NCBI RefSeq assembly: GCF_001310815.1
Contig: NZ_BAZK01000013.1
Location: 1 to 64,000 of the forward strand
Length of the DNA: 64,000 bases
DNA from: Pseudovibrio denitrificans JCM 12308
GTDB lineage: Bacteria > Pseudomonadota > Alphaproteobacteria > Rhizobiales > Stappiaceae
Direction of reading: 5' to 3'
A program made the position numbers and the translations under genes. Positions 4,411 through 23,351 of the stretch are shown here, piece by piece (position 1 is the stretch's first letter; each line of letters starts with the position of its first letter). Below the pieces are notes generated by a model that worked only from the letters and a program-made list of their open reading frames with translations, was not told the origin of the DNA and did not search any database.

Positions 4411-6737
4411 AGCTTCAGGTTCTTCAACCGCAGGGAGTTCATGACCACGCAGAAGGATGAGAGGCTCATGGCCAGCGCTGCGATCATGGGTGAGAGCAGG
4501 GCTCCGGTGAAGGGGTAGAGAATGCCTGCTGCGATGGGGACACCTGCGGAATTATAGACAAACGCCAGGAACAGGTTCTGGCGGATGTTGCGTAGCGAAC
4601 CGATGGCGAGCTTGCGGGCGCGGACGATGCCGGTGAGGTCGCCATTGAGCAGGGTGATGCCTGCGCTTTCAACGGCGACGTCGGCGCCTGTTCCCATGGC
4701 CAGACCCACATCCGCGGAGGCCAGAGCCGGTGCGTCGTTGACGCCGTCACCTGCCATGGCCACCATGGCGCCGGAGGTGTGGAGCTGATCGATCAGGGTT
4801 TTCTTGTCTTCTGGCAGGGCTTCAGCCTTGAACTCGTCAATGCCCACAGTGGCAGCCACGGTTTTGGCTGTGAGTGCATTGTCTCCCGTTGCCATGATGA
4901 CTTTGATGCCTGCCTCATGCAGCTGCTTGATGGCTTTGCTTGCGTTCTCCTTGATCGGATCAGAGATGGCGATGAGGCCGATGACTTTCTCTTTGTTCGA
5001 GATGTAGATGCTGGTGTTGCCGGTCTCGCTGAGGGATTGATGCTTTTGCTTCATCTCCTCGGAGATCTTATCGGTCAGGCCGAAGATGGCCGGATTGCCG
5101 ATGGCGTAGACGTGGTCATCTACCTTTGCGCTGACGCCTTTGCCGGTGTGGGCTTCAAAGTCCTCTGAATTGGCAAGTGCCATACCTCTGTAATTGGCCG
5201 CGTTGACGATGGCTTCTGCCAGCGGGTGCTCGGAGCCTTTTTCAATGGAGGCGGCCACGTGGAGCAGCTGGTCTTCGGTGTACTCTTCGGAGAACGCATG
5301 GATTGAGGTGACGGTCGGTTTGCCTTCCGTGATGGTGCCGGTTTTGTCGACGATGAGGGTGTCGACTTTGGACATGAGCTCTAGTGCTGTGGCGTCTTTG
5401 ATGAGGACGCCAGCCTGCGCACCTCTGCCGCTGGCGGTCATGATGGACATGGGGGTGGCGAGGCCCAGTGCGCAGGGGCAGGCGATGATGAGCACGGAGA
5501 CGGCGACAATGATGGCGTAGGAGAGGGACGGTGCCGGGCCGACGATGAGCCAAATGAAGAAGGACAGGATCGAGATGCCAACGACTGTTGGGACGAAGTA
5601 GGCGGAGACCTTGTCTGCCATGCCTTGAATGGGCGCGCGGGAGCGTTGTGCGGAGGAGACCATGGCGACGATCTTGGAGAGCATGGTATCAGCGCCGACG
5701 TTGATAGCCTCGATGATGAGCGTGCCGTTTTTGTTGAGTGTGCCGCCGGTGACGGTGTCGTCGACGTTCTTCTCAAGGGCGATGGGTTCGCCGGTGATCA
5801 TGCTCTCATCCACGTAGGACTGGCCGTTTATGACGCGGGAGTCGACGGGGATGGCCTCGCCGGGGCGGACGCGGAGCTTGTCGCCGGTCATGATGTTTTC
5901 AAGCGGGGCGTCGTATTCGGTGCTGTCGTCCAGCACGCGGCGGGCGGTTTTGGGGGCGAGGTCCAGTAGGGCGCGGATGGCGTCGCCGGTGCGCTCGCGG
6001 GCGCGCAGCTCCAGCACCTGCCCCATGAAGATCAGCGCGACGATGACAGCGGCGGCTTCATAGTAGACGGGGGGATGGCCGGTGGCGGCACGGATGCCAG
6101 GGGGGAATAGGCCGGGCAGGAACGTGGCGACGAGGGAGTAGAGATAGGCAGCCCCGACACCGAGGGTGATCAGGGTCCACATGTTGAGGTTCCATGTGGT
6201 GATGGATTTGATGCCGCGCTTGAATAAGGGAACGCCTGCCCAGAGGACAACGGGTGAGGCGAGGATGAACTCGACGTAGATGGCAGTTGGTTCGCCGATC
6301 CACTCGCGGAAGGGGAGGCCGATGAACGGGCCCATGGTGATGGCGAGGAGCGGGATCGCGAGGACCGCGCTGAGCCAGAAACGGCGGGTGAAGTCAACGA
6401 GTTCGTGGCTGGGTTCGTCATTGCTGGTGACGGTCATGGGCTCCAGCGCCATGCCGCAGATTGGGCATTCGCCGGGGCCTTTCTGGACGATCTGCGGGTG
6501 CATGGGGCAGGTGTAGTCGATGTCCTGCGCGTTGGCGTCCTGCTGCTTCTTGCTGTTGCCGCTTGCATAGAAGTAGGGATCGCCCTCGAACTTGTGGGAG
6601 CATTTTTCGGAGCAGAAGTGGTAGGACTTTCCAGCGAAGTCAGCGGCAAGGGTTTCAGCGGTGACGGTGACCTGCATACCGCAGACCGGGTCTTGTTCTG
6701 TGGTACCGGAGGTGGGTGTGTTTGATGCCTCGTCCAT
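4407..6737 (-). CDS. copper-translocating P1B-type ATPase with YHS domain
   Basis: A 776-residue P1B ATPase that should export copper from the cytoplasm. In order: a YHS domain (residues about 15-58, CGM...[10 protein letters not shown]), a His/Cys heavy-metal-binding domain (about 74-101, TCPMHP and CPICGM), eight predicted membrane helices, the actuator TGEP motif (about 315), the metal-site CPC (420-422), the phosphorylated DKTGT (464), SEHP in the nucleotide domain, and GDGVNDAP. The CxxC-type HMA domain common in CopA is absent and replaced by the YHS plus metal-binding pair. Length and motifs are complete. No regulator lies next to it; a complex inverted repeat sits just upstream. Confidence 0.93.
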
Positions 6738-7779: not shown

Positions 7780-8420
7780 TCAGCCGTTTTGGGACTGAAC
7801 CATCTTCAGGTGTGGTTCCATGATCGTAGCGAATTTGCGGATGATTTTTTCGACGTAGGCTGGGTCGCTGTGGAACTCTTGCTGGAAAATCATGCCGCGG
7901 ATGAAGGAGCGCCAGATCAGGAGGGTGAGGGTCATGTCCTCTTCCGCTGCTTTATCCAGGCCCGGAGGCAGGAAGAACTGGTTGAGCTGGTCGTTCCAGT
8001 CTTCCAGCTTTGGCGAGATGCGCTGCGAGAGTGCTTTATCGGTGCGCGTTGCATGATGATTTCAGAGAACGCCCGACCTTCCGGTGTGTCGATGATGTTT
8101 CGCCAATAAGTCACGAGAGCATCTGCCAGTGTGCCACCCTCAGCTTGTGTGATCTGTGCGAAGGGGAAGGAGCTTGGGCTTTCCTGCTGGTAGTGGCGCA
8201 GAATTCTTGAAAGCAGAAAATCCACCGTACCGATGACCAGATCTTCCTTTGATGGGAAGTGGTGCATCAGCGCGCCCCGGCTGACATCAACGCCTTCCAG
8301 CACCCGGTTGATAGAGGTTTCCGCATAGCCAAGCCGGTCGAGGCAATCGATGGTCGACTTAATGAGGGCCTTGCGTGTGTTTTCACCGCGCTGCTTCTTC
8401 ATGTCCAACTTGCTTACCAT
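7780..8420 (-). pseudogene. TetR family regulator (AtuR-like), frameshifted
   Basis: The N-terminal 120 residues are a clear TetR/AcrR regulator with a helix-turn-helix (TSINRVLEGVDVSRGALMHHFPSKEDL). Near 8045-8052 the frame is lost; one extra base restores a continuous C-terminal domain (ending in MEPHLKMVQSQNG, stop 7780-7782), giving about 213 residues, the usual TetR length. The loss is therefore a single-base deletion, possibly a sequence error, since the downstream frame is well preserved. The gene is divergent from the atuA-like gene with a palindrome in between, so it should control the acyl-CoA catabolic cluster, as AtuR does in Pseudomonas. The ATG at 8420 follows AAGG; TTG at 8426 is an alternative. 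Confidence 0.8.
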
Positions 8421-8460
8421 GATCAACCTTAGCCTTAAGACGGGGTTTTTGCTGAAATAC

Positions 8461-8500
8461 TTGACGTATTGGGAAGGAGTATATACCGTACGTTTGGTAT
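8461..8500 (+). promoter_or_regulatory. atuA promoter and TetR-type operator
   Basis: The 18-base palindrome ATACCGTACGTTTGGTAT (8483-8500) has matching arms ATACC/GGTAT and a central ACGT. A -35-like TTGACG lies at 8461-8466; a -10-like hexamer would overlap the left arm of the palindrome. The site lies between the divergent TetR gene and the atuA-like gene, where a TetR repressor would block transcription until bound by an acyl-CoA or terpene acid. The operator assignment is inference from position and symmetry. Confidence 0.6.
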
Positions 8501-8521
8501 GTAAAAGAGGTTTCCGTCAAA

Positions 8522-10354
8522 ATGACCATGAAAAACACGGAAAATCAAAGCTCTAGTAAACGTAAGCAGCCCATTCGTATTGGGGGTGCTTGCGGCTTTT
8601 GGGGTGACTCCAACGCGTCAACGGGGCAATTGTTGCGCGCTGGCGGGCTCGATTACATCGTCTATGACTATCTGGCAGAGATCACTCTTTCCATCATGGC
8701 AAGGGCGCGTCAGAAGTCTCCTGATCTTGGATATGCGACGGATTTTGTCGAGCAGGTGCTTGGGCTCAATCTGAAAACGATCGCTGCTTCCAAGACAAAG
8801 ATTTTAAGCAATGCAGGCGGCGTGAACCCGGAGAGTTGCGCTGCCAAGATCCGTGAATTGATTGCTGCACAGAAGCTGGATCTGAAGGTTGCTGTTGTGA
8901 CCGGTGATGACCTGTTGGCGGAAGCCTCTGCCTTTAAAGAGGCCGGTGTCACTGAGATGTTCTCCGGTGAAGCCTTCCCGAAAGCGGAGAAGGTTGCTTC
9001 CATCAACGCCTACCTTGGTGCGCAGCCAGTTGTTGCTGCTTTGGAGGCTGGTGCAGATATTGTGATTACGGGCCGATGTGCTGACAGTGCGTTGACGCTT
9101 GCGGCCTGTGCTCATGCCTTTGGCTGGGACTGGACGGATTATGATCGCCTCTCTGCAGGTAGCCTTGTTGGGCATTTGCTGGAGTGCGGAACGCAAGTGA
9201 CTGGCGGCAACTTTACAGACTGGCGGGATGTGCCGGATGTGAAGAAGATCGGTTATCCGATTGCGACTGTCTATGAAGATGGCAGCTGTGACCTAAGCAA
9301 GCCTGAAGGCAGCGGTGGCCTTGTGAGTGTAGGCACGGTTGCAGAACAGCTGGTTTATGAGATCGGCAATCCGCAAGCTTACCTGCTGCCAGATGTGACC
9401 TGCGACTTCTCTCAGGTAACGATTGAGGAGAAGACCTCTGAGAGTGTGCATGTTTCTGGTGCGAAAGGGCGCGCTGCGCCTGAGAGCCTGAAGGTTTCCG
9501 CCACTTGGGCAGATGGGTTCCGCATCGGATTGATGGTGCCATATGTGGGCTTTGATGCAGGTGAGAAAGCGAAGGTCTTTGCTGACCTTGCCCTTGGCCG
9601 CGCTGAGACAGTTATGAAGAAACTTGGTGCACCCGGCTATCAGGAAGTTTCCGTTGAGATCGTGGGGGCAGGATCTCAGATAGGGGAAGCGCCTGTCAGC
9701 CGGGGCACTTACGAAGAAGTTGTTTTGAAGATTGCCGCACGGCATGTGGATCAGCGGGCTGCTGGTTTGTTGCTGCGGGAGCTGACTGGCCTTGGCCTTT
9801 CTGTAGCGCCGGGCATGACGACCTTTAACGGCGGGCGGCCTAAGCCCTCCCCTGTTGTGCGGTTGTTCTCTTTCCTTGTCGAGCAGTCTGCCGTGTCTCC
9901 CAAAGTTTCGCTGGAAGGTGAGGCTGTGGCGTTTGAGCACGCAGTTGTGGCAGAGGCTGCTGCCTCAGTTGAAGCAGCTGAGGTTCCGGGTGCGCCTGCT
10001 ACTGATGATGCGCTTGCAGAGGTGCCATTGATCAAGCTTGCCTATGCCCGCAGTGGTGACAAGGGCGATAAGGCAAACATTGGTGTTATCGCGCGAAAAG
10101 CAGAATGGCTGCCATGGATTGCAGCGGCATTGAGTGAAGACGCGGTTGCCAAGAGTTTTGCGCATTTCAATCCGGGCAAGGTTGCCCGTTTCTATCTGCC
10201 GGGCTGTCATGCACTCAACTTTCTGATTGATGATGTGCTGGGCGGCGGTGGCATTGCCAGTTTGCGGCTGGACCCGCAGGCGAAGGCGTATAGCCAGATC
10301 CTGCTGAGGCACAGTGTTTCCGTTCCGCACTCCATCGCGCAGGAGGTGATGTGA
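8522..10354 (+). CDS. atuA: AtuA-like acyclic terpene utilization protein (DUF1446)
   Basis: A 610-residue protein of the DUF1446/AtuA family. The N-terminal domain (about 18-470) contains the family stretch IRIGGACGFWGDS and TGRCADSALTLAACAHAFGW; the C-terminal 110 residues (AYARSGDKGDKANIGVIAR near 513) form the AtuA-like ferredoxin-fold domain. In Pseudomonas AtuA is required for growth on citronellol and geraniol, but its biochemical role is unknown. It is the first gene after the operator and overlaps the hydratase by one base, suggesting translational coupling. ATG at 8522 follows AGAGG; an ATG at 8528 is also possible. Confidence 0.88.
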   Translation: MTMKNTENQSSSKRKQPIRIGGACGFWGDSNASTGQLLRAGGLDYIVYDYLAEITLSIMARARQKSPDLGYATDFVEQVLGLNLKTIAASKTKILSNAGGVNPESCAAKIRELIAAQKLDLKVAVVTGDDLLAEASAFKEAGVTEMFSGEAFPKAEKVASINAYLGAQPVVAALEAGADIVITGRCADSALTLAACAHAFGWDWTDYDRLSAGSLVGHLLECGTQVTGGNFTDWRDVPDVKKIGYPIATVYEDGSCDLSKPEGSGGLVSVGTVAEQLVYEIGNPQAYLLPDVTCDFSQVTIEEKTSESVHVSGAKGRAAPESLKVSATWADGFRIGLMVPYVGFDAGEKAKVFADLALGRAETVMKKLGAPGYQEVSVEIVGAGSQIGEAPVSRGTYEEVVLKIAARHVDQRAAGLLLRELTGLGLSVAPGMTTFNGGRPKPSPVVRLFSFLVEQSAVSPKVSLEGEAVAFEHAVVAEAAASVEAAEVPGAPATDDALAEVPLIKLAYARSGDKGDKANIGVIARKAEWLPWIAAALSEDAVAKSFAHFNPGKVARFYLPGCHALNFLIDDVLGGGGIASLRLDPQAKAYSQILLRHSVSVPHSIAQEVM

Positions 10355-11160
10355 TGACTGATGCACCAACAACGGATGCTGTGCTGGTTGCGCAGCAAGA
10401 TGGCTGGATGACCATCACGTTGAACCAGCCAGAAAAGCGCAATCCGCTGACAGGCGAAGTGATTGCTGAAATTTCCAAGGTTCTGCGGGATGTGCAGGAT
10501 GACCGCAGCGTGCGTGGCATTACGTTCACCGGTGCTGGTGGTGTGTTCTGTGCAGGCGGTGATCTGAAATCCTTCCAGCAGATCATGGCTGGCGGTGATG
10601 AGGCTGAAGCCATTGCGCAGAAAATCAGTCTGGAAGCTGCCGAGTTTTTTGGAATGATCGCCCATCAGCCACAAGTGACCATCGCTTTGGTGGAGGGTGC
10701 GGCCATGGCGGGTGGCCTGGGCATGGCGTGTGCCTGTGATTTTGTGGTGGCCACGCAAGATGCCAAGTTTGCTTTTACTGAGACGCGGATTGGCTTGCCG
10801 CCGGCTCAGATTGCTCAGTACGTGACCAAGCGACTGGGCTACCAGAAAGCCAAGAAAATGCTCGTGTTGGGGAGCAAACTGACCGGTGACGAGGCCTTTG
10901 ACGTCGGTCTGGTTGATCAGGCTGTTGCCAGTCAGGCAGAGCTTGAAGCAGCAGAAACTGAGATAAAACAGCAGGTTATGGCCTGTGCGCCGGGTGCTGT
11001 TGCAGCCACGAAGAAGGTGGTTGAAGAGACGCGTTTCCTTGAACAGGAGGAACTGCGCCAGAGTGCAGCTGCCTATTTTGCGAGAGCAATTGTTGGGGAC
11101 GAGGGACAGGAAGGTGTGAAGTCGTTTTTGCAGAAACGCAAACCATCCTGGGCACCATAA
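10354..11160 (+). CDS. atuE: enoyl-CoA hydratase, methylglutaconyl/isohexenylglutaconyl-CoA type
   Basis: Crotonase-fold protein of 268 residues. The oxyanion hole lies in FCAGGDLKSF and AAMAGGLGMACACDF. The catalytic segment AFTETRIGLPPAQIAQYV keeps one Glu and replaces the other crotonase Glu, as in the AUH/LiuC/AtuE branch that hydrates 3-methylglutaconyl-type esters rather than simple enoyl-CoAs. In the Atu pathway AtuE hydrates isohexenylglutaconyl-CoA after the carboxylase step, matching the carboxylase genes here. The ATG at 10354 overlaps the atuA stop (TGATG) and follows AGGAGG. Confidence 0.78.
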   Translation: MTDAPTTDAVLVAQQDGWMTITLNQPEKRNPLTGEVIAEISKVLRDVQDDRSVRGITFTGAGGVFCAGGDLKSFQQIMAGGDEAEAIAQKISLEAAEFFGMIAHQPQVTIALVEGAAMAGGLGMACACDFVVATQDAKFAFTETRIGLPPAQIAQYVTKRLGYQKAKKMLVLGSKLTGDEAFDVGLVDQAVASQAELEAAETEIKQQVMACAPGAVAATKKVVEETRFLEQEELRQSAAAYFARAIVGDEGQEGVKSFLQKRKPSWAP

Positions 11161-11241
11161 GCCGCCCCTCAAATTTAGGGGTATGCGTTTACCCGATAAC
11201 AGATGTTCGAATGCGGTGAAGGAAGAAGAAATGCAGGGTAT

Positions 11242-11269
11242 GCTCATATGCGTATGAGCTGATTATAAT
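11242..11269 (+). promoter_or_regulatory. palindrome and -10-like box before the acyl-CoA ligase
   Basis: GCTCATATGCGTATGAGC (11242-11259) is an 18-base near-perfect dyad with 7-base arms, directly followed by a TATAAT hexamer (11264-11269). It is in the 184-base gap between the hydratase and ligase genes. It may be an internal promoter with an operator distinct from the atuA palindrome. A weaker hairpin CCCCT/AGGGG is at 11165-11181. No clear -35 box was found. Confidence 0.45.
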
Positions 11270-11344
11270 GCCGAAGTCTATCGCGCAAAAAAGATAGTGC
11301 TGGAAGCAGCGGGGAGGCTGAACCAGCACATCAGAGGAGGGAAC

Positions 11345-13033
11345 ATGGGTACACAGTACGCACTGCCAATTGAAATGCTGCAAAAATGGGCCACAGAGAA
11401 ACCAAACTCGGTTTATCTGCGACAACCTGTGAACCGGCAGTTCATTGAGTTCACCTGGAAGGAGTGTTACGACACGGTCCGGCGAATGGCTGCTGCGCTC
11501 CAATCAATGGGTTTCCAACCGGGGGACCGGATTGGCATTCTCTCCAAAAACTGCGCTGAATGGTTTCTTGCTGACTTTGCAATTCAGGCTGCTGGTTACA
11601 TCTCTACGCCGATCTATTACACCGCCTCAGCAGATACGATCAGCTACATCATTGACCATGCGGACATCAAAGCTGTGTTCATGGGCAAGCTGGATGACTT
11701 TGCGCCGAGTGAGCAGGGTATCCGTGACGGTGTGGTGAAGATTGCGCTTCCTTATAAAACGATAGATTGCGAGTACAGCTGGACGGAGCTGCTTAAACAG
11801 AATGAGCCTTTACCAGAAGACCAGCTTGCCAAGCCGGATCTGGATGAGCTGTTTTCCATTGTTTACACCTCTGGCTCCACCGGGAACCCCAAAGGGGTGG
11901 AAGTCTCCTGGCGCAACATTGCTTATGGGGCGTGGTCTCCAACCCAGTCTCTTGAGCTGGGGCGTGAGGAACGCTTGATTTCCTATCTGCCGCTGGCTCA
12001 TATCACCGAGCGTGCACTCATTGAGCATGTGAGCCTTTATGCTGGTGTGGTGGTGAGCTTTGTGGAGTCTCTGGATACCTTTGCAGAAGATTTGCGTGCT
12101 GCTGAAGTGACCATGTTCATTTCTGTGCCGCGGCTCTGGATGAAGTTCCAATCGGGGATTTTGGCCAAGGTGCCACAGAAGAAGCTGGACCGGCTTTTGA
12201 GCATTCCGATCCTGAGCTGGTACGTGAAGCGGAAGATCCGCGCGCAGCTTGGTCTGACCAACGCGAAGCTGATCGGCAGTGGATCTGCGCCGATCTCCAA
12301 GGCCGTGCTGGAATGGTATCAGAAGCTGGGTATCAACATCACTGAAGGGTGGGGCATGACCGAGACGGCTGGTCTTGCGTCCTCGCACTTCCCGTTCCGT
12401 GCGGACAAGGTTGGTACCATCGGTACGCCGCTTGCCGGGCTGGAGATCAAGATCACCGACGAGGGTGAGCTGCTTATTCGCGGGGATTCCGTCACCAAAG
12501 GTTATTACAAAGACCCTGAGATGACTGCGGAGACCATCGAAGAAGGTGGCTGGTTCCATACGGGTGACAAGGTGGAGCAGGATGCTGACGGGTTCTTGCG
12601 GATTACAGGCCGTGTGAAGGAGATCTTCAAATCCTCCAAGGGCAAGTACATTGCGCCGGTGCCGATTGAGGCGATGCTGTTTGACAATACCTATGTGGAG
12701 CAGGCCTGCGTGATGGGGTCTGAGCTGGCTCAGCCTGTAGCCGTGGTGTTCCTCTCCTCCGAGATCACTCATGGTCTGTCGCGTGAAGAGGTTCGTACGA
12801 GCCTTGAAGAGACCTATCACAGCATCAATCGATCCGTTGAAAGCCATCTGAAGCTGAGCTCGATCATTGTCGCCAACGACATGTGGACCATCGAGAATGG
12901 CTATCTGACCCCAACCATGAAGATCAAGCGGACGCGTCTGGAAGATCGCTATCAGGACGTGGTGCACTCCATGCCGGATCGTCCTGTGGTCTGGGAAGAC
13001 GAATGCGGAACCGAGGCAACTGCTCCGGCCTGA
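11345..13033 (+). CDS. AMP-dependent acyl-CoA synthetase (AtuH-like)
   Basis: Adenylate-forming ligase of 562 residues that should activate a carboxylic acid to its CoA thioester. Motifs in order: YTSGSTGNPKGVEVSW (P-loop, about residues 175-190), GWGMTETAG (A5), GGWFHTGD (A7), GRVKEIFKSSKGKYIAP (A8 hinge), and a C-terminal Lys in LTPTMKIKR. It resembles long-chain fatty acid ligases; in this context it probably activates an acyclic terpenoid acid such as citronellate or geranate. I chose ATG 11345, preceded by AGAGGAGGG, over an in-frame upstream start at 11297. Confidence 0.82.
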   Translation: MGTQYALPIEMLQKWATEKPNSVYLRQPVNRQFIEFTWKECYDTVRRMAAALQSMGFQPGDRIGILSKNCAEWFLADFAIQAAGYISTPIYYTASADTISYIIDHADIKAVFMGKLDDFAPSEQGIRDGVVKIALPYKTIDCEYSWTELLKQNEPLPEDQLAKPDLDELFSIVYTSGSTGNPKGVEVSWRNIAYGAWSPTQSLELGREERLISYLPLAHITERALIEHVSLYAGVVVSFVESLDTFAEDLRAAEVTMFISVPRLWMKFQSGILAKVPQKKLDRLLSIPILSWYVKRKIRAQLGLTNAKLIGSGSAPISKAVLEWYQKLGINITEGWGMTETAGLASSHFPFRADKVGTIGTPLAGLEIKITDEGELLIRGDSVTKGYYKDPEMTAETIEEGGWFHTGDKVEQDADGFLRITGRVKEIFKSSKGKYIAPVPIEAMLFDNTYVEQACVMGSELAQPVAVVFLSSEITHGLSREEVRTSLEETYHSINRSVESHLKLSSIIVANDMWTIENGYLTPTMKIKRTRLEDRYQDVVHSMPDRPVVWEDECGTEATAPA

Positions 13034-13050
13034 AAGGGTGATGATGGTTT

Positions 13051-13069
13051 GGGGTGACGTGGTCACCCC
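13051..13069. other. intergenic hairpin within the atu-like cluster
   Basis: GGGGTGAC (13051-13058) pairs with GTCACCCC (13062-13069) around a 3-base loop. It lies between the ligase and SDR genes, without a T-tract, so it is more likely an mRNA-stability or partial termination element than a full terminator. Confidence 0.4.
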
Positions 13070-13137
13070 GGCCAGGATTTTCTGAGGTGAGAACCTCTGT
13101 TTGACTAAGCCGCGCTTGTGGCAGGGAGACTTTTGGA

Positions 13138-14046
13138 ATGAGCAATGAACCGTCCCGTTACGCATCAGTTCTGCGAGATGGGTTGTTTGATGGGCAGACT
13201 ATGATTGTGACTGGGGGAGGCAGTGGCATTGGTCGCTGCATCGCCCACGAACTTGCCGCGCTGGGTGCCCATACCGTTCTCCTTGGCCGCAAGCAGGCAA
13301 AGCTGGATGCGGTGGCTGATGAAATCCGTGAGGATGGGGGAGACGTTTCCACCCATTCTCTGGACATCCGCAATGAAGAAGCTGTTGCGGAGACTGTTTC
13401 AAACATCGTTGCGGAGCGTGGGGTGATCCATGGTCTGGTGAACAATGCTGGCGGGCAGTATCCAAGTCCTGCAGCGGCGATCAAGAAGAAGGGCTTTGAT
13501 GCGGTTGTTGAGACCAACGTAACCGGCGGGTTTCTGATGGCGCGTGAGGTTTACAATCAGGGCATGCGGAAGAGCAAAGGCGGTGCCATCGTCAACATCG
13601 TAGCAGATATGTGGCGCGGTATGCCGGGTATGGCGCACTCTGGTGTGGCGCGGGCCGGCATGCAGAACCTGACCATGACGCTGGCCGTTGAATGGGCGGA
13701 AGCAGGTGTGCGCGTGAATGCTGTAGCACCGGGCTGGATCGCGTCGTCCGGTTTTGACACGTACGATGAGAACTTCATCAAGCACATGTTTGCGCGCATG
13801 TCTGAGAACAATCTGGCGCGCCGTCTGGGCACTGAGGCTGAAGTGGCGTCTCTGGTGAACTTCCTGTTGTCTCCGGGTGCTGCATTCATCACTGGCCAGT
13901 GCATCGGCGTGGATGGTGGTGCGCCGCTCTGGACCAATCTGATGCCGGTTGGCGACAATGCGAACATGAAGGAATACCAAGGCTTCCATCGCTATGAGAA
14001 GCCGAAGGCCCTTCAAGCTTGGGAGAAAGACAAATGCCCAAGTTAA
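13138..14046 (+). CDS. short-chain dehydrogenase/reductase with non-canonical active site
   Basis: An SDR of 302 residues with a Rossmann TGGGSGIG motif (25-32) and NNAG (102-105). The classical Tyr-x3-Lys pair is replaced by Ser-Gly-Val-Ala-Arg (168-172), and no catalytic Ser is visible in the NIVAD strand. This resembles the 2,4-dienoyl-CoA reductase-type branch, where the active-site Tyr lies elsewhere. In Pseudomonas the atu cluster carries two SDRs, AtuB and AtuG; this gene could fill either role, or reduce an enoyl/dienoyl-CoA. It overlaps the following carboxylase gene by 13 bases. Confidence 0.75.
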   Translation: MSNEPSRYASVLRDGLFDGQTMIVTGGGSGIGRCIAHELAALGAHTVLLGRKQAKLDAVADEIREDGGDVSTHSLDIRNEEAVAETVSNIVAERGVIHGLVNNAGGQYPSPAAAIKKKGFDAVVETNVTGGFLMAREVYNQGMRKSKGGAIVNIVADMWRGMPGMAHSGVARAGMQNLTMTLAVEWAEAGVRVNAVAPGWIASSGFDTYDENFIKHMFARMSENNLARRLGTEAEVASLVNFLLSPGAAFITGQCIGVDGGAPLWTNLMPVGDNANMKEYQGFHRYEKPKALQAWEKDKCPS

Positions 14047-15644
14047 CTTCGGCTGTCGATAGCGGCAGTGCCGCGTTTGCTCAGAACAAGGCCTTTATGG
14101 AGGCTCTGATTGAAGAGTTCCGTGGATATGAGGCTAAGGTTCGTGAGAACTCGGAGAGCAAGCGTGGGAAGTTTGAGAAACGTGGTCAGTTGCTGCCACG
14201 TGATCGTGTGAGCTTGCTGCTGGACCGCGGTGCGCCGTTCATGGAAATCTCCACGCTCGCTGGGCTGAAGATGCATGATGACGATGGCAAGAAGAACGCC
14301 GCAGGTGGCGGTTCGATTGCTGGCATCGGCTATGTGGCAGGCAAGCGCTGTCTTATCGTGGCGACAGACTCTGCCATTAAGGGCGGTTCCATTTCTCCGA
14401 TGGGTTTGAAGAAGACGCTTCGCCTGCAGGAGATTGCCAAGAAACAGAAGCTGCCGATTGTTGCGCTGACGGAAAGTGCGGGCGCGAACCTCATGTACCA
14501 GTCCGAGCTGTTTGTTGAAGGTGGCCGGGCGTTTGCCAATCAGGCGCGTTTGTCTGCGGCAGGCATTCCGCAGGTGACGGTGGTGCATGGGTCTTCAACG
14601 GCTGGCGGTGCATATATGCCGGGGCTGTCGGATTATACAGTTGTTGTTCGCGGTAAGACGAAGATCTTTCTGGCTGGCCCTCCGCTGCTGAAAGCGGCGA
14701 CAGGTGAAGTTGCATCGGATGAAGAGCTGGGTGGTGCAGAGCTGCATTACAACACAGCTGGCACGGCGGAATACATGGCCGAAGATGATGCGCATGGCGT
14801 TGAGACCGCGCGTGAGATCGTTGACCATCTGCCATGGGAAGCTCCGTTGGAGGCTGAGGGCGGCAAACAGCCGTTTTATGATGCTGAGGATTTGCTGGGC
14901 ATCGTGCCGGAAGACACCAAGAAGCCGTATGATGTTCGCGAGATCATCGCACGCATGACGGATGGCTCAGACTTCCTTGATTTCAAGAAAGAGTTTGGCG
15001 GCTCTACGGTTTGTGGTCATGCACGTATTGATGGGCAGGCTGTTGGCATTCTTGGCAATAACGGCCCGATTGACCCACAGGGAGCCGTGAAGGCGGCGCA
15101 GTTCATTCAGCTGTGTTGTCAGAGCAATACGCCGCTGCTCTTCTTGATGAACACCACTGGGTATCTGGTGGGCCGGGATGCAGAGACGAGCGGTATCGTC
15201 AAGCATGGGTCCAAGATGATCCAGGCGGTTGCCAATGCCACGGTTCCTAAAGTGACCATCGTTGTTGGTGGTGCCTGGGGTGCTGGTAACTACGGCATGT
15301 GTGGCCGTGGGTTTGATCCGGATTTCATCTTCTCATGGCCCTCCGCCAAGGTTGGCGTGATGGGACCAGAGCAAGCGGCGACGGTGATGAAGATCATCAC
15401 TGAAGAGAAGTTTGCGAAGATGGGACAGCAGATCCCTGATGGTATGACCGACCAGATGGCGCAGAAGATCATTGACCAGATGTCACCGGAGACGACAGCG
15501 CTGTTTGCGACTGCGCGGCTTTGGGATGATGGGATCATTGATCCAAGAGACACGCGCCGCGTTGTTTCAATGGCCCTATCTGTTTGTGCAGATGCCAAAA
15601 AACGTCAGCTTAATCCAACAGCATTCGGAGTTGCGCGCGGCTAG
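14034..15644 (+). CDS. atuC: acyl-CoA carboxylase beta subunit (geranyl/methylcrotonyl-CoA type)
   Basis: Carboxyltransferase subunit of 536 residues, the usual size for MCC/GCC beta. It has both crotonase-like halves: GSSTAGGAYMPGLSD (oxyanion hole, N half) and VGGAWGAGNYGMCGRGFDPDF (C half, acyl-CoA site; FSWPSAKVGVMG follows). Where methylcrotonyl-CoA carboxylases from memory read RIFYNQ, this has RAFANQ (165-170), a less bulky pocket that would fit geranyl-CoA. It pairs with the alpha subunit 1.3 kb downstream. ATG 14034 follows GGGAG and lies inside the end of the SDR gene. Confidence 0.83.
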   Translation: MPKLTSAVDSGSAAFAQNKAFMEALIEEFRGYEAKVRENSESKRGKFEKRGQLLPRDRVSLLLDRGAPFMEISTLAGLKMHDDDGKKNAAGGGSIAGIGYVAGKRCLIVATDSAIKGGSISPMGLKKTLRLQEIAKKQKLPIVALTESAGANLMYQSELFVEGGRAFANQARLSAAGIPQVTVVHGSSTAGGAYMPGLSDYTVVVRGKTKIFLAGPPLLKAATGEVASDEELGGAELHYNTAGTAEYMAEDDAHGVETAREIVDHLPWEAPLEAEGGKQPFYDAEDLLGIVPEDTKKPYDVREIIARMTDGSDFLDFKKEFGGSTVCGHARIDGQAVGILGNNGPIDPQGAVKAAQFIQLCCQSNTPLLFLMNTTGYLVGRDAETSGIVKHGSKMIQAVANATVPKVTIVVGGAWGAGNYGMCGRGFDPDFIFSWPSAKVGVMGPEQAATVMKIITEEKFAKMGQQIPDGMTDQMAQKIIDQMSPETTALFATARLWDDGIIDPRDTRRVVSMALSVCADAKKRQLNPTAFGVARG

Positions 15645-15697
15645 GGAGAGCTGCGCATCACAGCTCCCGGAACACAGTTCAACATGAGGGTTTCACG

Positions 15698-16885
15698 ATG
15701 GAATATACTGAAGAACATCGGAAAATGAAAAGTGCGGTGGTCAAGTTCGTCGAGGCCGAAATCAACCCGCATGTTCAGGAATGGGAAGAGGCTGGAATCT
15801 TCCCGGCTCATGAGCTTTTCAAGAAGATGGGTGATCTCGGTTTTCTTGGAGTCAACAAGCCGGAAGAGTATGGCGGGATGGGCCTTGATTACTCTTATCA
15901 GGCCATGACCATTGAAGCGCTGGGCGCGTGTGCCTGCGGTGGTGTGCCAATGGCGATTGGTGTGCAAACCGATATGGCAACCCCGGCACTCTCCCGGTTT
16001 GGTTCTGATGAGTTGCGCCGCGAGTTTCTGACCCCGGCGATTGCTGGTGACATGGTGGCCTGTGTTGGTGTGTCTGAGGCCCATGCGGGGTCTGATGTGG
16101 CGAACATCAAGACTACAGCGCGCAAGGATGGTGATGACTACGTGATCAGCGGATCCAAGATGTGGATCACTAACTCCACGCAGGCGGACTATATGTGCAT
16201 GCTGGCAAACACCAGTGATGGGCATAAGCACCAGAACAAATCTCTGATCATCGTGCCGATGGACAGTGCAGGCATCACCAAATCAGATCGCCTGAACAAG
16301 CTGGGCCAGCGTTCTTCCGATACGGCGCAGATCTTCTTTGATGACGTGCGTGTTCCTCAACGCAATCTGATTGGCACTGAGGGTGCTGGTTTCATGTACC
16401 AGATGCTTCAGTTCCAGGAAGAGCGCCTGTGGTGTGCGCTGTCTCTGATTGACGGTATGGACCGCATCATTCAGCTGACGGAAGATTATTGCCGTGAGCG
16501 TGCTGCGTTCAACCAGAGCATTCTGGACTTCCAGGTGGTTCACTTCCGCCTGTCAGAGCTGCGGACCGAAGTTGAGCTGCTGCGTGCGCTTTCTGAGAAG
16601 TGTGTTGAATCCATGGTGCGTGGTGAGAACGTGACCCGTCTTGCTTCCATGGCGAAGCTGAAGGCTGGCCGTCTGTCTCGTGAACTGGCGGACTCCTGTC
16701 TGCAGTTCTGGGGTGGCATGGGTTACATGTGGGACAGCCCTGTGAGCCAGTTCCTGCGTGATAGCCGCCTGACCTCCATTGGTGGTGGTGCGGATGAAGT
16801 GATGCTTTCCATCATCTCCAAGCTGGATGGCACTTTGCCAAACCCAAAGAAGAACCGTGCAATGCAGAAGGAAGCAGCTGAATAA
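15698..16885 (+). CDS. acyl-CoA dehydrogenase (AtuD-like, first copy)
   Basis: Flavin-dependent acyl-CoA dehydrogenase of 395 residues that introduces an alpha,beta double bond. The FAD-binding motifs CVGVSEAHAGSDVAN and MWITNSTQADYM are visible. The Glu in FQEERLW matches the catalytic base position of isovaleryl-CoA dehydrogenase, and the C-terminal segment is GGGADEVML rather than YEGT. It fits the citronellyl-CoA dehydrogenase step (AtuD). It follows the carboxylase beta gene by 53 bases and precedes the alpha subunit; the alpha gene is separated by a repeat element. Confidence 0.82.
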   Translation: MEYTEEHRKMKSAVVKFVEAEINPHVQEWEEAGIFPAHELFKKMGDLGFLGVNKPEEYGGMGLDYSYQAMTIEALGACACGGVPMAIGVQTDMATPALSRFGSDELRREFLTPAIAGDMVACVGVSEAHAGSDVANIKTTARKDGDDYVISGSKMWITNSTQADYMCMLANTSDGHKHQNKSLIIVPMDSAGITKSDRLNKLGQRSSDTAQIFFDDVRVPQRNLIGTEGAGFMYQMLQFQEERLWCALSLIDGMDRIIQLTEDYCRERAAFNQSILDFQVVHFRLSELRTEVELLRALSEKCVESMVRGENVTRLASMAKLKAGRLSRELADSCLQFWGGMGYMWDSPVSQFLRDSRLTSIGGGADEVMLSIISKLDGTLPNPKKNRAMQKEAAE

Positions 16886-16912
16886 GCTGCCTCCTCGGCC
16901 ATTATTTGAAAG

Positions 16913-16957
16913 GCGTATCCTTATCCGAAAACCGGTTCCCACTTTTCGGGGATACGC
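16913..16957. repeat. palindromic intergenic repeat, copy 1
   Basis: A 45-base element starting GCGTATCC and ending GGGATACGC, with the inner palindrome CCGAAAACCGGTT...TTTTCGG. Two more copies lie at 23352-23396 and 30225-30269 in this window. The ends are inverted repeats, so the RNA or single strand can form a long hairpin. Such elements are common between genes in Rhizobiales-type genomes and act like REP/BIME units. Here it splits two genes of the atu-like operon. Confidence 0.85.
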
Positions 16958-16987
16958 TCCATTTTGGCAGTGTGAAGGGAATTTTCG

Positions 16988-18876
16988 ATGTTTGATAGCG
17001 TCCTGGTCGCCAATCGGGGGGAGATTGCTCGCCGAGTGTTCCGCACTGCGCGGCAAAAGGGCTATCGGAGTATTGCTGTTTATTCCGAGGCTGATGCAAC
17101 CGCTCCGCATGTTGAAGATGCTGATATTGCGGCGTGTATTGGCGGTGCGACACCAGCTGAATCTTACCTCAAGATTGAAGCGATCTTGGAAGCGGCCCGC
17201 AAAACCGGCGCACAGGCTGTGCATCCGGGCTACGGGTTCCTAGCGGAGAACGCGGAATTTGCGCGGGCGTGTGCGGAAGCTGGACTGGTGTTCATTGGTC
17301 CGCCAGCAGAAGCCATTGAGCTGATGGGCTCCAAGCGACTTTCCAAGCTGCGGATGATTGAGGCAGGCGTGCCATGCGTGCCGGGGTATTCCGGGTCTGA
17401 TCAGTCGACTGAGACGTTAGCGGCGGAAGCTGCGTGCATTGGTGTGCCGCTGATGATCAAGCCTCTGCCGGTGGTGGTGGGCGTGGTCTGCGACTGGTTG
17501 AAGACCTGAATGGGCTAGAAGACAAGTTGGCGGCTGCGGCTTCAGAAGCTGAAAATGCATTTGGCAATGGCGAGCTAATTCTCGAAAAGGCTGTCATCAA
17601 TCCACGCCATGTGGAGATACAGGTGTTTGCCGACAATCACGGCCACGTGGTGTATCTGGGTGAGCGGGATTGCTCTGTGCAGCGTCGCCACCAGAAGGTG
17701 GTTGAGGAAGCGCCGGGACCATCTGTGACGCCGGAAATCCGGGCTGCGATGGGGCAGGCCGCAGTGGATGCAGCGCGGGCCATTGGCTATCGCGGGGCAG
17801 GCACGGTTGAGTTTCTGCTGGCTGAGGATGGCAGTTTCTACTTCATGGAGATGAACACCCGCTTGCAGGTGGAGCATCCGGTGACGGAAGAGATTACCGG
17901 TCAGGATCTGGTTGCCTGGCAGCTGGATGTGGCTGCTGGCAAACCTCTGCCACTGGAGCAGGGCGAGATTTCCTTCAGCGGCCACGCCATGGAGCTTCGC
18001 CTCTATGCCGAAGACGCGGATGCGGGCTTCCTGCCGCAGACGGGGACTGTGCTGGCGTGGAACGGCAATGAGCTTTCCTTGCGCGTTGATAGTGCCATTG
18101 AGCAGGGCAGCGAGATTTCATCCTACTACGACCCGATGATTGCCAAGCTGATTGCGCATGGCAGTGACCGGGACGAAGCACGCCGCAAGTTGCTGCGTGG
18201 ATTGGATGAACTGGTTTTGCAGGGCTTGGTGCATAACGGTGCGTTCCTGAAGAGTGTGTTGCAGGACGAAGTGTTTGCAGCTGGCAATGCAACGACGGCT
18301 TTCCTGAATGACCGCGAGCTTGGATCGGTTGCGGCAGATGCCACACGAGAGCTCCTGCGTGATCTTGCAGTGCATCTGTTTGCGCGCAGCAAAGGCCAGA
18401 ACCGCTGGACTACAGCGACGCCTTTGCCTGTAAAAATCAAGCTGGACGGGGAAGAGACTGTAGCGCGTGAGGATCTGACTATCCTCAGTGGTGGGGACAG
18501 TGGTGCCATCATCTTCGAAGCCGATGGTGTTCGGCGCACTGCTTTTGTGAGTGAGGCTCCTGAGGGTGGTCTCTGGATCTCATTGGAAGGACAGACGCAG
18601 TTCTTTGAAGAGCAAAGCTTCAGTACCAAGAAAGATGACAGTTCAGCAGCTGGTAGCTCCATCATTGCGCCTATGCCGGGTGCAGTTGTGGCGTTGAAAA
18701 CGGAGCAGGGCGCACAGGTTTCCAAGGGAGATGTGTTGCTGGTTCTGGAAGCGATGAAGATGCAGCATGAGCTGACTGCACCGCGTGATGGTGTTGTTGC
18801 TGAGCTTGGAACGCAGGAAGGCGCGCAGGTGAACAGCCGTGATGTGCTGGTTCGCCTGGAAGATGAAACCGCTTGA
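16988..18876 (+). pseudogene. atuF: acyl-CoA carboxylase alpha (biotin) subunit, frameshifted
   Basis: Biotin carboxylase plus biotin carrier subunit of about 630 residues. Motifs: [15 protein letters not shown] at the N-terminus, ATP-grasp Gly loop [23 protein letters not shown], and the biotinylated EAMKMQH near the C-terminus. One G is missing after position 17461 (AAGCC instead of AAGGCC), which breaks the frame exactly at the glycine loop; inserting one base restores an unbroken protein. The conservation on both sides suggests a sequence error or a very recent mutation. With the beta subunit it would form a geranyl- or methylcrotonyl-CoA carboxylase. Confidence 0.85.
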
Positions 18877-18915
18877 TTGAGTTGATGGAATCCGCTTTTG
18901 AGGGCGGTGGAGAAT

Positions 18916-20088
18916 ATGATGAGTTTGAACCTTCCTGACTTCGGATTGAAGCGTAAGTCCACCATGTTCACTGAGGAACATGAAGCGTTTCGTGATGTGC
19001 TTTCTCGCTTCATTGCCAAGGAGATTTCGCCCTACGTCTCCCAGTGGGACGAAGCTAATGAGTTTCCGCGTGAGCTATATAAAAAGGCGGCGGATGTTGG
19101 CTTGCTGGGCATCATGTTTCCAGAGGAGTATGGCGGGACGGGCATCGACTATCCGCTGTCTTATCTCTCCGCAGTTGAGCTTGGGCGTGCGGGAAGTGGG
19201 GGCATCAATGCGGGTTTGATGAGCCACACCATTGGCACGCCTCCGATTGCGCATCTTGGTTCTGATGAGTTGAAGGCGCGGGTGATCCCCTCTGTGCTGG
19301 CAGGTGAGAAGATTTCTGCTCTGGCGATTACTGAACCGGGCGGTGGGTCTGATGTACAGAACCTGAAGACCGTGGCACGCCGGGAGAACGGGCATTATGT
19401 GCTGAACGGGGAGAAGACCTTCATCACCTCCGGTATGCGTGCAGATTATTATACGGTTGCTGTGCGGACGGGTGAAACAGGCATGGGCGGTATTTCGCTG
19501 ATGCTGGTTGAGAAGGGCATGGAAGGTTTTACTCAGACGCCGTTGCACAAAATGGGATGGTGGGCCTCTGACACCGCAACGCTGCATTTTGACAATGTGA
19601 AGGTGCCAGTTGAGAACCTGATTGGCGGTGAGAACGCCGGGTTCATGGGCATCATGATGAACTTCAACAATGAGCGCCTGTTTCTTGCATCCGCCTGTTA
19701 CGGTCACATGCTGGGTGTGTTTGAGGAAGCGCTGGACTGGGCGAAGCAGCGTGAGACGTTTGGCAAGCCGCTCATTCACCGGCAGGTTATCCGGCACAAG
19801 TTCGTTGATATGGCGATGAAGATGCAGGCTGTCCGGGCTGTGCTGGAAGAGCTGGCGCAACGGTTGCAGTTGGGAGAAAGCCCGATCACCGAGATCTGCA
19901 TGGCGAAGAACCTGGCAACGAGCACGCTGGAATATGTGGCCAACGAATGCCTTCAGATCCTCGGCGGTGCAGGTTACATGCGCGGAACCAAGGTTGAGCG
20001 CATTTATCGTGAAACCAAGGTGATGACTATCGGTGGTGGGTCTTCTGAGATCATGAAGGATCTGGCCAGCCGGCAGATGGGTATCTAA
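18916..20088 (+). CDS. acyl-CoA dehydrogenase (AtuD-like, second copy)
   Basis: A second acyl-CoA dehydrogenase, 390 residues, in the same cluster. LAITEPGGGSDVQNL and TFITSGMRADYYTV bind FAD and substrate; NNERLF carries a Glu in the isovaleryl-CoA dehydrogenase-type base position; GGGSSEIMKDLASRQ closes the protein. Two dehydrogenases could handle two different steps or chain lengths, for example saturated and shortened intermediates. The start is ambiguous among ATG codons at 18916 and 18919; GGTGGAG precedes 18916. It is the last gene of the cluster, followed by a bidirectional terminator. Confidence 0.82.
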   Translation: MMSLNLPDFGLKRKSTMFTEEHEAFRDVLSRFIAKEISPYVSQWDEANEFPRELYKKAADVGLLGIMFPEEYGGTGIDYPLSYLSAVELGRAGSGGINAGLMSHTIGTPPIAHLGSDELKARVIPSVLAGEKISALAITEPGGGSDVQNLKTVARRENGHYVLNGEKTFITSGMRADYYTVAVRTGETGMGGISLMLVEKGMEGFTQTPLHKMGWWASDTATLHFDNVKVPVENLIGGENAGFMGIMMNFNNERLFLASACYGHMLGVFEEALDWAKQRETFGKPLIHRQVIRHKFVDMAMKMQAVRAVLEELAQRLQLGESPITEICMAKNLATSTLEYVANECLQILGGAGYMRGTKVERIYRETKVMTIGGGSSEIMKDLASRQMGI

Positions 20089-20146: not shown

Positions 20147-21883
20147 TTAGGCTTTTTCTTCGGTCGCGACCGATTTGGCAATCTCGTTTGGCGTTGCGCC
20201 GGAGATGCCGAGCTCTCCAAGAAGGCTGTCGACCAGTGGAGCCTGAGATCGGTATCTCAGAGCTGAGTTGACCAGCTGATCGGAGAGGCCTGCGGAAGCG
20301 CCTTCTGCCGGTGCTCCATTTGCAACAGGAGCTGCGCCGTTTAAGCCATCGACCTGGAGGATCTTGATCTCGTCGATGTTCTCCATTGGCTTCACGCTTG
20401 CACCGATAACCTGCGGAAGAGCCTCGATCAGCGCCAGTTTGACCTGCATCTGGATCTGCTCAGGAGACAGCAGGTTTGCCGCTTCGTTGAGGATGCGCTT
20501 ACCTTCTGCTTCCACTGCGAGGCGGAGCTTGTCTGCTTCCGCGCGAGTGGTCACAGCATCAGCTTCCGCGTTTGCCGCGATACGGATCTGATCCGCGTTA
20601 CCGCTTGCTTTCAGACGAACAGCTTCAGCGTGGTCTTCTGCTGCCTGTTTTTCAGCTTCCGCACCAACGGTGACGGAGATTGCAGCACGTTCCGCTTCCT
20701 GAGCTGCAACGACCAACTCAACCTGCTTCTGACGTTCTGCCACTTCGATTTCGCGAGCGGTGACGACCTGTTCTTCTGCCTTAATTGCAACAGCACGGGC
20801 TTCGTTTGCTGCAGCGTCCGCTGTTGAGAGTGCCTTGGACTTCTCAGAGACCGCGATGGAGCGGTCCTGCTGAGTCAGTTCAATGACCTTTTCCTTCTCA
20901 ATGCGGGTTTCTTCCAAAGAGCGATCCTTGAGGATTTCCTGCTCTTTCACCTGACGTTCAGAAGCGATAGATGCCTGCTTGATCTCCAGATTGGATGTGA
21001 TCTCTGCCTGTTCGGCATCGCGGCGACGTTCTGCCTGTTCGGTGGCGATCAGAGCCTGCTGTTTGGCGCGGCGGATTTCAAGATCGCGCTGCTGTTCCAG
21101 ACGGGCATATTCTTCCTCGCGGGAGATATCGAGCTTCTGCTGTTCGGCGTCCAGGTTTTTGCGCTGGATCTGAACTTCGGTGTCCTGCTCGATGTCGTTC
21201 CGCTTTCTGCGGCGCTCTTCGATTTCCTGTGTGAGCTTGGTCAAACCTTCCGCATCGAACGCGTTGTTCGGGTTGAAGTATTCCATGCGGGTCTGGTCGA
21301 GACCGGTCAGGGAAACGGACTCCAACTCCAGACCGTTTTTCAGCAGATCTTCGGAAACAGCTGCCTGAACTTTCTGCACGAAGGAGACACGTTGCTCGTG
21401 GAGTTCTTCCATTGCCATTTCTGCAGCCACAGCACGCAGGGCATCAACGAACTTACCTTCAATAAGATGCTTCAGGTCTTCCGGGTGCATTGTCCGCACA
21501 CCGAGGGTCTGAGCAGCATTTGCGATGGACTCGATGGTTGGCTGAACACGCAGGTAGAACTCCGCCACCACGTCGACGCGCATGCGGTCGCGGGTGATGA
21601 GGGCTGCTTCATCAGCACGGCGGACTTCCAGACGCAAGGTGTTCATGTTGACGTTAATGATATCATGGAGCACCGGCAGGACGATTGCGCCGCCGTTCAT
21701 GATGACTTTCTGGCCGCCAAAACCAGTCCGTACGAAGGCAACCTCTTTTGAGGAGCGGGTATAAAGGCGTGAAAAGACAATACCAATTGCGAGAAGTGCG
21801 ACGAGGATAACACCGGCGAGTACGAGCAGCTCCATAAAGCTGGTAGACGTAGCTACGACCGCGTTTTGAGTATCTGAAAACAT
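20147..21883 (-). CDS. flotillin family protein (YqiK-like)
   Basis: A 578-residue SPFH/flotillin protein. One N-terminal membrane helix (LLVLAGVILVALLAIGIVF), an SPFH domain (roughly 30-220, including AALITRDRMRVDVVAEFYLRV), then a long coiled-coil rich in Glu, Ala and Gln (about 230-480) and a C-terminal tail. Bacterial YqiK flotillins scaffold membrane microdomains and affect stress resistance. Genetic context (YqiJ and PspA homologues upstream, same strand) supports a membrane-integrity role. ATG 21883 follows GAGGTC; an ATG at 21895 would add 4 residues. Confidence 0.88.
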   Translation of the reverse strand: MFSDTQNAVVATSTSFMELLVLAGVILVALLAIGIVFSRLYTRSSKEVAFVRTGFGGQKVIMNGGAIVLPVLHDIINVNMNTLRLEVRRADEAALITRDRMRVDVVAEFYLRVQPTIESIANAAQTLGVRTMHPEDLKHLIEGKFVDALRAVAAEMAMEELHEQRVSFVQKVQAAVSEDLLKNGLELESVSLTGLDQTRMEYFNPNNAFDAEGLTKLTQEIEERRRKRNDIEQDTEVQIQRKNLDAEQQKLDISREEEYARLEQQRDLEIRRAKQQALIATEQAERRRDAEQAEITSNLEIKQASIASERQVKEQEILKDRSLEETRIEKEKVIELTQQDRSIAVSEKSKALSTADAAANEARAVAIKAEEQVVTAREIEVAERQKQVELVVAAQEAERAAISVTVGAEAEKQAAEDHAEAVRLKASGNADQIRIAANAEADAVTTRAEADKLRLAVEAEGKRILNEAANLLSPEQIQMQVKLALIEALPQVIGASVKPMENIDEIKILQVDGLNGAAPVANGAPAEGASAGLSDQLVNSALRYRSQAPLVDSLLGELGISGATPNEIAKSVATEEKA

Positions 21884-21904
21884 ATTTGACCTCAAACTGA
21901 GAGA

Positions 21905-22630: not shown

Positions 22631-22654
22631 TGAACATAGTGGTTTTTGTTGCTG

Positions 22655-23332: not shown

Positions 23333-23351
23333 AAAATCCTCCAATTCTATG

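Follow-up and report, generated by a model that had tools for sequence, protein, structure and literature searches.

What does a gene cluster built around atuA, a gene of the acyclic terpene utilization (Atu) pathway, do in a marine alphaproteobacterium, and which reaction would the AtuA protein carry out in it? Pseudovibrio lives with marine hosts, and the question is raised by positions 7780-20088 of a 64,000-nucleotide stretch of Pseudovibrio denitrificans JCM 12308 (contig NZ_BAZK01000013.1, G000:C13 in our numbering; the whole stretch is called the window hereafter). In this locus a divergent tetR gene is followed on the forward strand by atuA and the genes of a crotonase, an AMP-forming ligase, a short-chain dehydrogenase/reductase (SDR, AtuB), a carboxylase beta subunit (AtuC), an acyl-CoA dehydrogenase (AtuD), a carboxylase alpha subunit (AtuF) and a second acyl-CoA dehydrogenase (ACD2). 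A sequence-only reading had named this gene set with its order and strands, all of which are borne out by Pfam matches (Table 1). On the whole, we consider the cluster likely to be a TetR-controlled catabolic operon of the Atu type, in which AtuA would act as a carboxymethyl-removing enzyme and whose products would pass to the leucine/isovalerate (Liu) operon. Judged by its sequence, it is an Atu operon that has been rearranged and whose carboxylase forms a separate lineage. Pseudomonas gene names and reactions are given here after passages of PMC4847356 and PMC4097962.

By its sequence, the carboxylase is of the geranyl-CoA type

The best match of the beta subunit in the PDB is geranyl-CoA carboxylase (GCC) of P. 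aeruginosa (PaGCC, chain 5ikl_B), with 769 bits and 64% identity, against 525 bits and 47% for the methylcrotonyl-CoA carboxylase PaMCC. According to the portion of PMC4673880 used here, two rules mark a GCC, namely a glycine (PaGCC 162) in place of Phe191 of the methylcrotonyl-CoA carboxylases (MCC), and the lack of a three-residue insertion just before it. Aligned with 5ikl_B and 3u9r_B, the beta subunit of the window has the glycine and lacks the insertion. Its pocket segment, FVEGGRAFANQ, is near FVEGARGFANQ of PaGCC, and that of the beta subunit from the genome's own liu operon, FPDKEHFGRIF, is the MCC form. Among 99 aligned beta rows the insertion is absent in 94, and it occurs together with the phenylalanine in four MCC-type rows, which are three PDB chains and the genome's own liu beta. 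The two rules do not sort every row, because five of the 94 rows without the insertion, judged by eye, have no glycine (L054, L120 and L179, as well as L064 and L085, which have phenylalanine).

The tree agrees with the pocket. In a careful 50-row tree the MCC rows are set apart with 100/100, and the beta subunit of the window falls in a 24-row clade together with GCC of Pseudomonas (97/83); the first fork inside it that still holds both has only 90/76. By pocket residues and tree, the beta subunit is thus assigned to the geranyl-CoA carboxylase type, on the GCC side; the comparison of its pocket with GCC and MCC, which had been proposed from the sequence alone, returns a GCC signature outside the MCC clade and upholds the call of an Atu-type rather than a Liu-type cluster in a marine alphaproteobacterium.

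A Liu operon or a second MCC would have the same enzyme types, and GCC does have very weak MCC activity according to PMC4673880. We nevertheless regard this explanation as very improbable, since the beta subunit has neither the insertion nor the phenylalanine of MCC, a Liu operon with an MCC-type beta and the HMG-CoA (3-hydroxy-3-methylglutaryl-CoA) lyase gene sits separately on contig C34, and the whole window gives no match to that lyase as query, just as the sequence-only reading had noted. The Liu reading of the cluster was rejected on the beta signature, the tree and the separate operon on C34.

Two observations on other beta subunits may be added. One at L041:16392-17987 in genome G028, about 10 kb from an AtuA gene, has an insertion of MCC length without the phenylalanine and fits neither rule. 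In a 99-row tree, 58 rows drawn from L052-L127, L180 and L181 form a clade of carboxylases linked to AtuA, most of them belonging to Alpha- and Gammaproteobacteria, with many compact A-C-(E)-F clusters and with pocket motifs unlike that of the Pseudomonas GCC, for example TVEGF..GG.LFANL and TVELWAHGGGMF.

Comparison with the Pseudomonas atu loci

As the Pseudomonas-type reference we took four loci whose beta subunits are 88-91% identical to PaGCC. In these loci AtuA is followed by the SDR, beta, dehydrogenase, crotonase and alpha genes in that order, and three of the four have a second SDR. Identity of the window's SDR is 57-60% with the SDR adjacent to beta in the four loci and 26-31% with the second one, in the AtuG position, in three. 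Similarly, the first dehydrogenase is 64-66% identical to the dehydrogenase beside beta in all four, whereas ACD2 is only 37-38% identical to the Pseudomonas-type AtuD, its relatives at 50-64% recurring in other GCC-type clusters; of the two AtuD genes read from the sequence, then, the first stands and the second does not. The alpha subunit shows biotin carboxylase and biotin carboxyl carrier protein domains in Pfam, spread over two frames in the window. The TetR protein was not recognised as an orthologue of AtuR with its 13-bp repeats AGCAAGCGCTTGG, being 26% identical over 50 residues, and the palindrome upstream of atuA is unlike the AtuR repeats of Pseudomonas in the part of PMC9973270 that describes them.

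Compared with atuRABCDEFGH of Pseudomonas, the window shares the divergent TetR gene, AtuA, the AtuB-C-D block in the same order, AtuF, a crotonase, a ligase and a Liu operon elsewhere, while it differs in its order, R/A-E-H-B-C-D-F-ACD2 (the slash marks the divergent genes), in the extra dehydrogenase and in having no AtuG. Because of these identities, together with those given below for the crotonase and the ligase, the predicted assignments of AtuB, C, D and F are clear, AtuE is weak, the ligase is an analogue of AtuH, there is no AtuG, and the last dehydrogenase comes as an extra. The resemblance to Pseudomonas atu noticed earlier holds for A, B, C, D and F, in a different order and with one SDR, and is to be corrected for the missing AtuG. 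No report of the cluster in Pseudovibrio was found among the matches listed in a limited look at Pseudovibrio with terpene, and Pseudovibrio is in no title among the matches for geranyl-CoA carboxylase with AtuA.

AtuA goes with geranyl-CoA carboxylases and may be replaced by BKACE

The AtuA Pfam family has a single member in the genome at E 0.001. For an overall view we surveyed 398 genomes of the phylum, taking E <=1e-130 for a long AtuA, more than 540 bits for a GCC-type beta and E <=1e-150 for a lower-scoring beta, presumably of the MCC type, with three candidates scored per genome and cut-offs chosen after gaps in the scores had been seen. Long AtuA is found in 26 of the 45 genomes with a GCC-type beta, in 2 of the 69 with only a lower-scoring beta and in 3 of the 284 others (26/45 against 5/353, Fisher p 7.6e-24, kinship ignored). 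Left out of this count are a full-length relative in the GCC-type genome G154 (35%, E 8.8e-89) and shorter relatives with E from 1e-60 to 1e-93. Because of these proportions, AtuA appears to accompany GCC-type carboxylases and not leucine degradation.

AtuA is also present in other surroundings. Eight Pelagibacteraceae (SAR11) contigs, L060, L061, L063, L065, L066, L070, L071 and L077, carry it at 53-55% identity in stretches with no carboxylase match, seven of them with a crotonase 43-49% identical to that of the window; in L061 the neighbours of AtuA, as judged by reading, include a flavin monooxygenase, an AMP ligase and likely genes of branched-chain transport. On the Pseudoalteromonas donghaensis plasmid L130, an AtuB-like SDR and a GCC-type beta are followed downstream by an AtuD-like match, and matches to the alpha subunit and AtuA are absent from the stretch.

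Which gene takes the place of AtuA where it is missing? In the AtuA-less GCC-type locus L174, the gene of a beta-keto acid cleavage enzyme (BKACE, PF05853) stands beside the AtuB-like SDR, which is the place of AtuA in Pseudomonas, and BKACE genes 66% and 64% identical to it occur in L171 and L177 respectively. The three loci share with the window a GCC-type beta, an AtuD-like dehydrogenase and an alpha subunit, L174 and L171 also an AtuB-like SDR and a crotonase, and differ from it by BKACE instead of AtuA. Across 45 GCC-type loci, AtuA is found in 22, a BKACE relative (60-66% identical) in 14, both in none and neither in 9 (Fisher p 6.8e-6). The stretches are about 20 kb long, some being ended by contig ends, and the last class consists partly of short contigs, since it includes L178 (7.7 kb) and L216 (12 kb); four of its nine genomes (G170, G231, G405 and G417) have a long AtuA elsewhere. 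None of the 14 BKACE genomes, nine of which belong to one genus, has a long AtuA anywhere. When collapsed to genera, the counts are 13 with AtuA, 5 with BKACE, 0 with both and 8 with neither (p 0.039). BKACE needs at least five changes on the beta tree, and in a tree-corrected pair test, itself underpowered, none of the seven independent pairs has BKACE changing in the same direction as AtuA (median p 0.5). The exclusion is limited to the GCC-type locus and to this BKACE subfamily, because paralogues elsewhere also occur in AtuA genomes, that of the window included. As a lead, AtuA and BKACE may both serve the stage of C-C cleavage. HMG-CoA lyase was rejected as the replacement of AtuA, since none of the 45 loci has a match to it and BKACE is found instead. 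No literature joining BKACE with AtuA, geranyl-CoA or citronellol was found among the matches listed.

The AtuA model resembles citramalate lyase

An AlphaFold2 model of AtuA, built from 45 sequences (pLDDT 89.7, pTM 0.89), was compared with the PDB by Foldseek. It has one good match, chain A of 9evf (E 4.6e-23, probability 1.00, TM by target 0.74), an entry with the title 'Citramalate lyase - ADP - pyruvate complex'. The 105-residue chain B of that entry, ranked 33rd, is a weak match (probability 0.99, TM by target 0.70, E 0.046). CmlA is also the only PDB relative of AtuA by sequence (E 2.5e-6 by profile and 0.00088 by single sequence), and of the 60 columns invariant in AtuA, 27 have the same residue in CmlA, compared with 26 of the other 136, a difference that the profile-guided alignment favours. 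Residues invariant in AtuA include R185, D188, E221, D233, E280, K324 and RSGDKG at 510-515. The C-terminal domain alone finds no credible relative among solved structures, its one match having E 2.1. Compared with the citramalate lyase CmlA/CmlB (9erq and 9evf), AtuA shares the fold of chain A (17% identity) and has a weak match to chain B (14%), and it differs in that its substrate would be a CoA thioester and that it seems fused. The simplest reading of the model is that AtuA may fuse the CmlA and CmlB subunits, with the PF23544 domain as the small one.

By analogy, citramalate cleavage and the Atu step would be alike, each having a free carboxylate on the carbon beside a tertiary alcohol and releasing acetate. 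Part of PMC12016498 describes the thn operon of anaerobic naphthalene degradation as having thnQ and thnS, both called 'AtuA-like lyase', and a passage of PMC4682846 places a DUF1446 gene next to methylaspartate ammonia-lyase in E. coli O157:H7, with the fate of citramalate unclear as of 2015. No relevant literature on an AtuA-type citramalate lyase was found, as judged by titles.

The citramalate-lyase fold, the co-occurrence with GCC and the mutual exclusion with BKACE all point to AtuA as a C-C lyase, and we propose that it may release acetate, perhaps driven by ATP; the ADP in the 9evf complex suggests that the carboxylate could be activated by ATP. A bolder version, which we put forward tentatively and hold to be rather unlikely in its full form, is that AtuA would be an ATP-dependent retro-aldol lyase (a fused CmlA-CmlB): it would phosphorylate 3-hydroxy-3-alkylglutaryl-CoA at its free carboxylate, and the products would be 3-oxoacyl-CoA and acetyl phosphate (or acetate plus phosphate). 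This chemistry would be common to terpene, citramalate and anaerobic naphthalene-ring cleavage, and BKACE, with a LiuE-like lyase, would replace AtuA in other GCC-type bacteria.

Conservation in Pseudovibrio and a candidate operator

AtuA is present in 10 of the 15 congeners searched. Nine copies are 77-98% identical with unchanged gene order, and copper ATPase and flotillin genes flank the operon in eight of these nine loci, the ninth contig ending too early. The tenth congener, G010 (locus L039), has an AtuA of 57-59% identity and the same nine genes in the same order; it shares the operator core with the window and differs by a beta subunit of 73% identity and by having the ATPase and flotillin genes not adjacent. 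Because the same order is kept in nine congeners and in G010, the cluster is not due to chance. The flanking genes of the window itself, named by reading, are a copper-type P-ATPase upstream of the operon (4407-6737) and flotillin, NfeD-like and PspA-like genes downstream of it (20147-23344).

Between tetR and atuA lies an imperfect palindrome (Table 1), which fits ATACCGTACGNNTGGTAT in all 11 aligned intergenic regions, beside a conserved TTGAC. It is the top-scoring inverted repeat in ten of the 11, and in L036 another stretch outscores it. Without mismatch it is found at one site in the own genome and one in each of the six congeners tested, so the TetR regulator looks dedicated to the operon, and the TetR protein would presumably bind there. 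A wider TetR regulon was rejected, as other sites with two mismatches are few in these seven genomes and no more than with a backward-pattern control.

Broken frames in tetR and the alpha gene

In the assembly, tetR and the alpha gene are frame-broken, with one base missing near 8053 and near 17461 respectively, a point that had escaped the sequence-only reading. Their open frames have 163 and 173 codons in the window, against 210-216 and 629-643 in all ten congeners with the cluster. The break in tetR is a one-base loss relative to G009, the closest congener, with which we counted indels over 62,085 aligned bases using mechanically called G009 open reading frames (ORFs) of at least 120 amino acids. 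Single-base indels number 32 in all, of which 12 fall inside ORFs; in each of these 12 it is the window that lacks the base, and 10 lie in runs of at least two identical bases. A broken frame is also seen in the alpha gene of the liu operon elsewhere in the genome. The two breaks are more probably errors of sequencing or assembly, because the in-ORF indels are all losses and mostly in short runs.

Two broken frames among nine genes could also mean a decaying pseudo-operon, in which tetR and alpha are genuinely frame-shifted in the strain, leaving it without the carboxylase. The pattern of losses, the frames open in ten congeners and the broken liu alpha make this improbable, and real pseudogenes are disfavoured by one-base losses running through the whole window. 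Given these losses, ORF calls throughout the window need caution.

Coordinates of the features

Table 1. Features of the atu-type cluster, single-base losses in the window, and BKACE genes of AtuA-less loci (window positions unless a locus is named).
Feature	Position	Strand	Basis or remark
TetR-family regulator, divergent from atuA	7780..8420 (low end approximate)	-	PF00440/TetR_N on N-terminal piece
Putative TetR operator, 18-bp imperfect palindrome	8483..8500		21 bases upstream of atuA; 14/18 positions symmetrical
atuA, catalytic domain and ferredoxin-like C-terminal domain	8522..10354	+	PF07287 (AtuA) and PF23544 (AtuA_ferredoxin)
Crotonase-family hydratase, AtuE-like	10351..11160	+	PF00378 (ECH_1)
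AMP-forming acyl-CoA ligase, AtuH analogue, not orthologue	11297..13033	+	PF00501 (AMP-binding)
SDR oxidoreductase, predicted AtuB orthologue	13138..14046	+	adh_short; identity to Pseudomonas-type loci
Carboxyltransferase (beta) subunit, AtuC/geranyl-CoA carboxylase type	14031..15644	+	PF01039 (Carboxyl_trans)
Acyl-CoA dehydrogenase, predicted AtuD orthologue	15698..16885	+	Identity to Pseudomonas-type loci
Biotin-carrying (alpha) subunit, AtuF	16988..18876 (frames 16988-17509 and 17434-18876)	+	Biotin_carb_N, CPSase_L_D2, Biotin_carb_C, Biotin_lipoyl
Second acyl-CoA dehydrogenase (ACD2), not AtuD	18898..20088	+	PF02771/PF02770/PF00441
In-ORF single-base losses	8053, 17461, 24662, 25503, 36118, 38884, 41763, 45607, 48169, 49295, 56921, 57385		Relative to G009
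BKACE genes in AtuA-less GCC-type clusters of three bacterial families	L174:11525-12376, L171:14620-15474, L177:8033-8884		

Proposed pathway, substrate and meaning

We infer the order of reactions from the Pseudomonas pathway. The ligase, perhaps with the SDR, would convert a beta-methyl branched acid, geranyl-sized or larger, to its CoA form, one or both dehydrogenases would introduce the 2,3-double bond, and the alpha/beta biotin carboxylase would carboxylate the beta-methyl (gamma) carbon. The crotonase would then hydrate the product to a 3-hydroxy-3-alkylglutaryl-CoA, from which AtuA would remove the carboxymethyl arm as acetate, or as an activated acetyl unit, giving a 3-oxoacyl-CoA to be degraded by beta-oxidation. 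The 3-methylcrotonyl-CoA formed at the end would be passed on to the Liu operon located elsewhere in the genome.

Several points weigh against this reading. The crotonase is 36-40% identical to the Pseudomonas-type one and scores 154 bits against NF004227 (gamma-carboxygeranoyl-CoA hydratase), below the NCBIfam cut-off of 426, so that the earlier call of AtuE is kept as a weak one. The ligase had been taken for AtuH, which did not hold up, as it has no match among the ORFs of the Pseudomonas-type locus L164 and one of only 21.5% in L165 (in L172, which is of another family, the figure is 22.6%); AtuH is dispensable for growth of P. aeruginosa on citronellate or geranate in the part of PMC3667196 concerned. 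AtuG, the second SDR, is absent, the cluster having a single SDR. The quick 99-row tree does not resolve the position of the beta subunit, which stands there at the base of the GCC side and is a deep lineage of its own; 19 of the 45 GCC-type genomes have no long AtuA. In addition, a passage of PMC9973270 describes a Pseudomonas cluster with 79-91% similarity to atu that breaks down fatty acids of the diffusible signal factor (DSF) type, and the review PMC4097962 credits LiuE as the HIHG-CoA (3-hydroxy-3-isohexenylglutaryl-CoA) lyase of Pseudomonas in the passage we draw on.

If LiuE, the HMG-CoA lyase, performed the C-C cleavage, AtuA would have a different role. The gene of this lyase is present in the genome, and locus L040 (G028), with an AtuA of 49% and no beta match, has an HMG-CoA lyase-like match of 36% about 4 kb away. 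However, the predicted AtuA fold is that of citramalate lyase, AtuA and BKACE are mutually exclusive at GCC-type loci, and no HMG-CoA lyase match occurs in the 45 GCC-type loci or in the 83 loci L048-L130, so this lyase is not linked to the pathway genes. We accordingly rate a cleavage by LiuE as possible but rather unlikely.

As to the substrate, the marine hosts of Pseudovibrio, the deep lineage of the beta subunit, the ligase unlike AtuH and the extra dehydrogenase would all suit the same chemistry on a compound other than geranyl- or citronellyl-CoA. Such a compound might be a longer isoprenoid acid, for instance farnesoate, phytenate or a terpenoid from sponges or algae, or else a branched 2-unsaturated fatty acid of the DSF type, and the atu-like cluster of P. 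nitroreducens HS-18 acts on DSF according to the same part of PMC9973270. Gene content does not fix the substrate, because an atu-like cluster degrades fatty acids of this type, and the sequence leaves geranyl/citronellyl compounds, longer isoprenoids and DSF-like acids as candidates. On the other side, the pocket segment is near that of PaGCC and unlike most other AtuA-linked beta subunits. We hold another substrate to be a serious possibility, somewhat short of an even chance; it concerns the substrate alone and leaves the mechanism of the Atu-type operon as it is.

On this reading of an Atu-type operon, the Atu pathway would extend to a marine, host-associated genus with its own gene order and carboxylase lineage. 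The larger value would lie in AtuA, whose function becomes a directly testable proposal, that of the C-C cleavage step.

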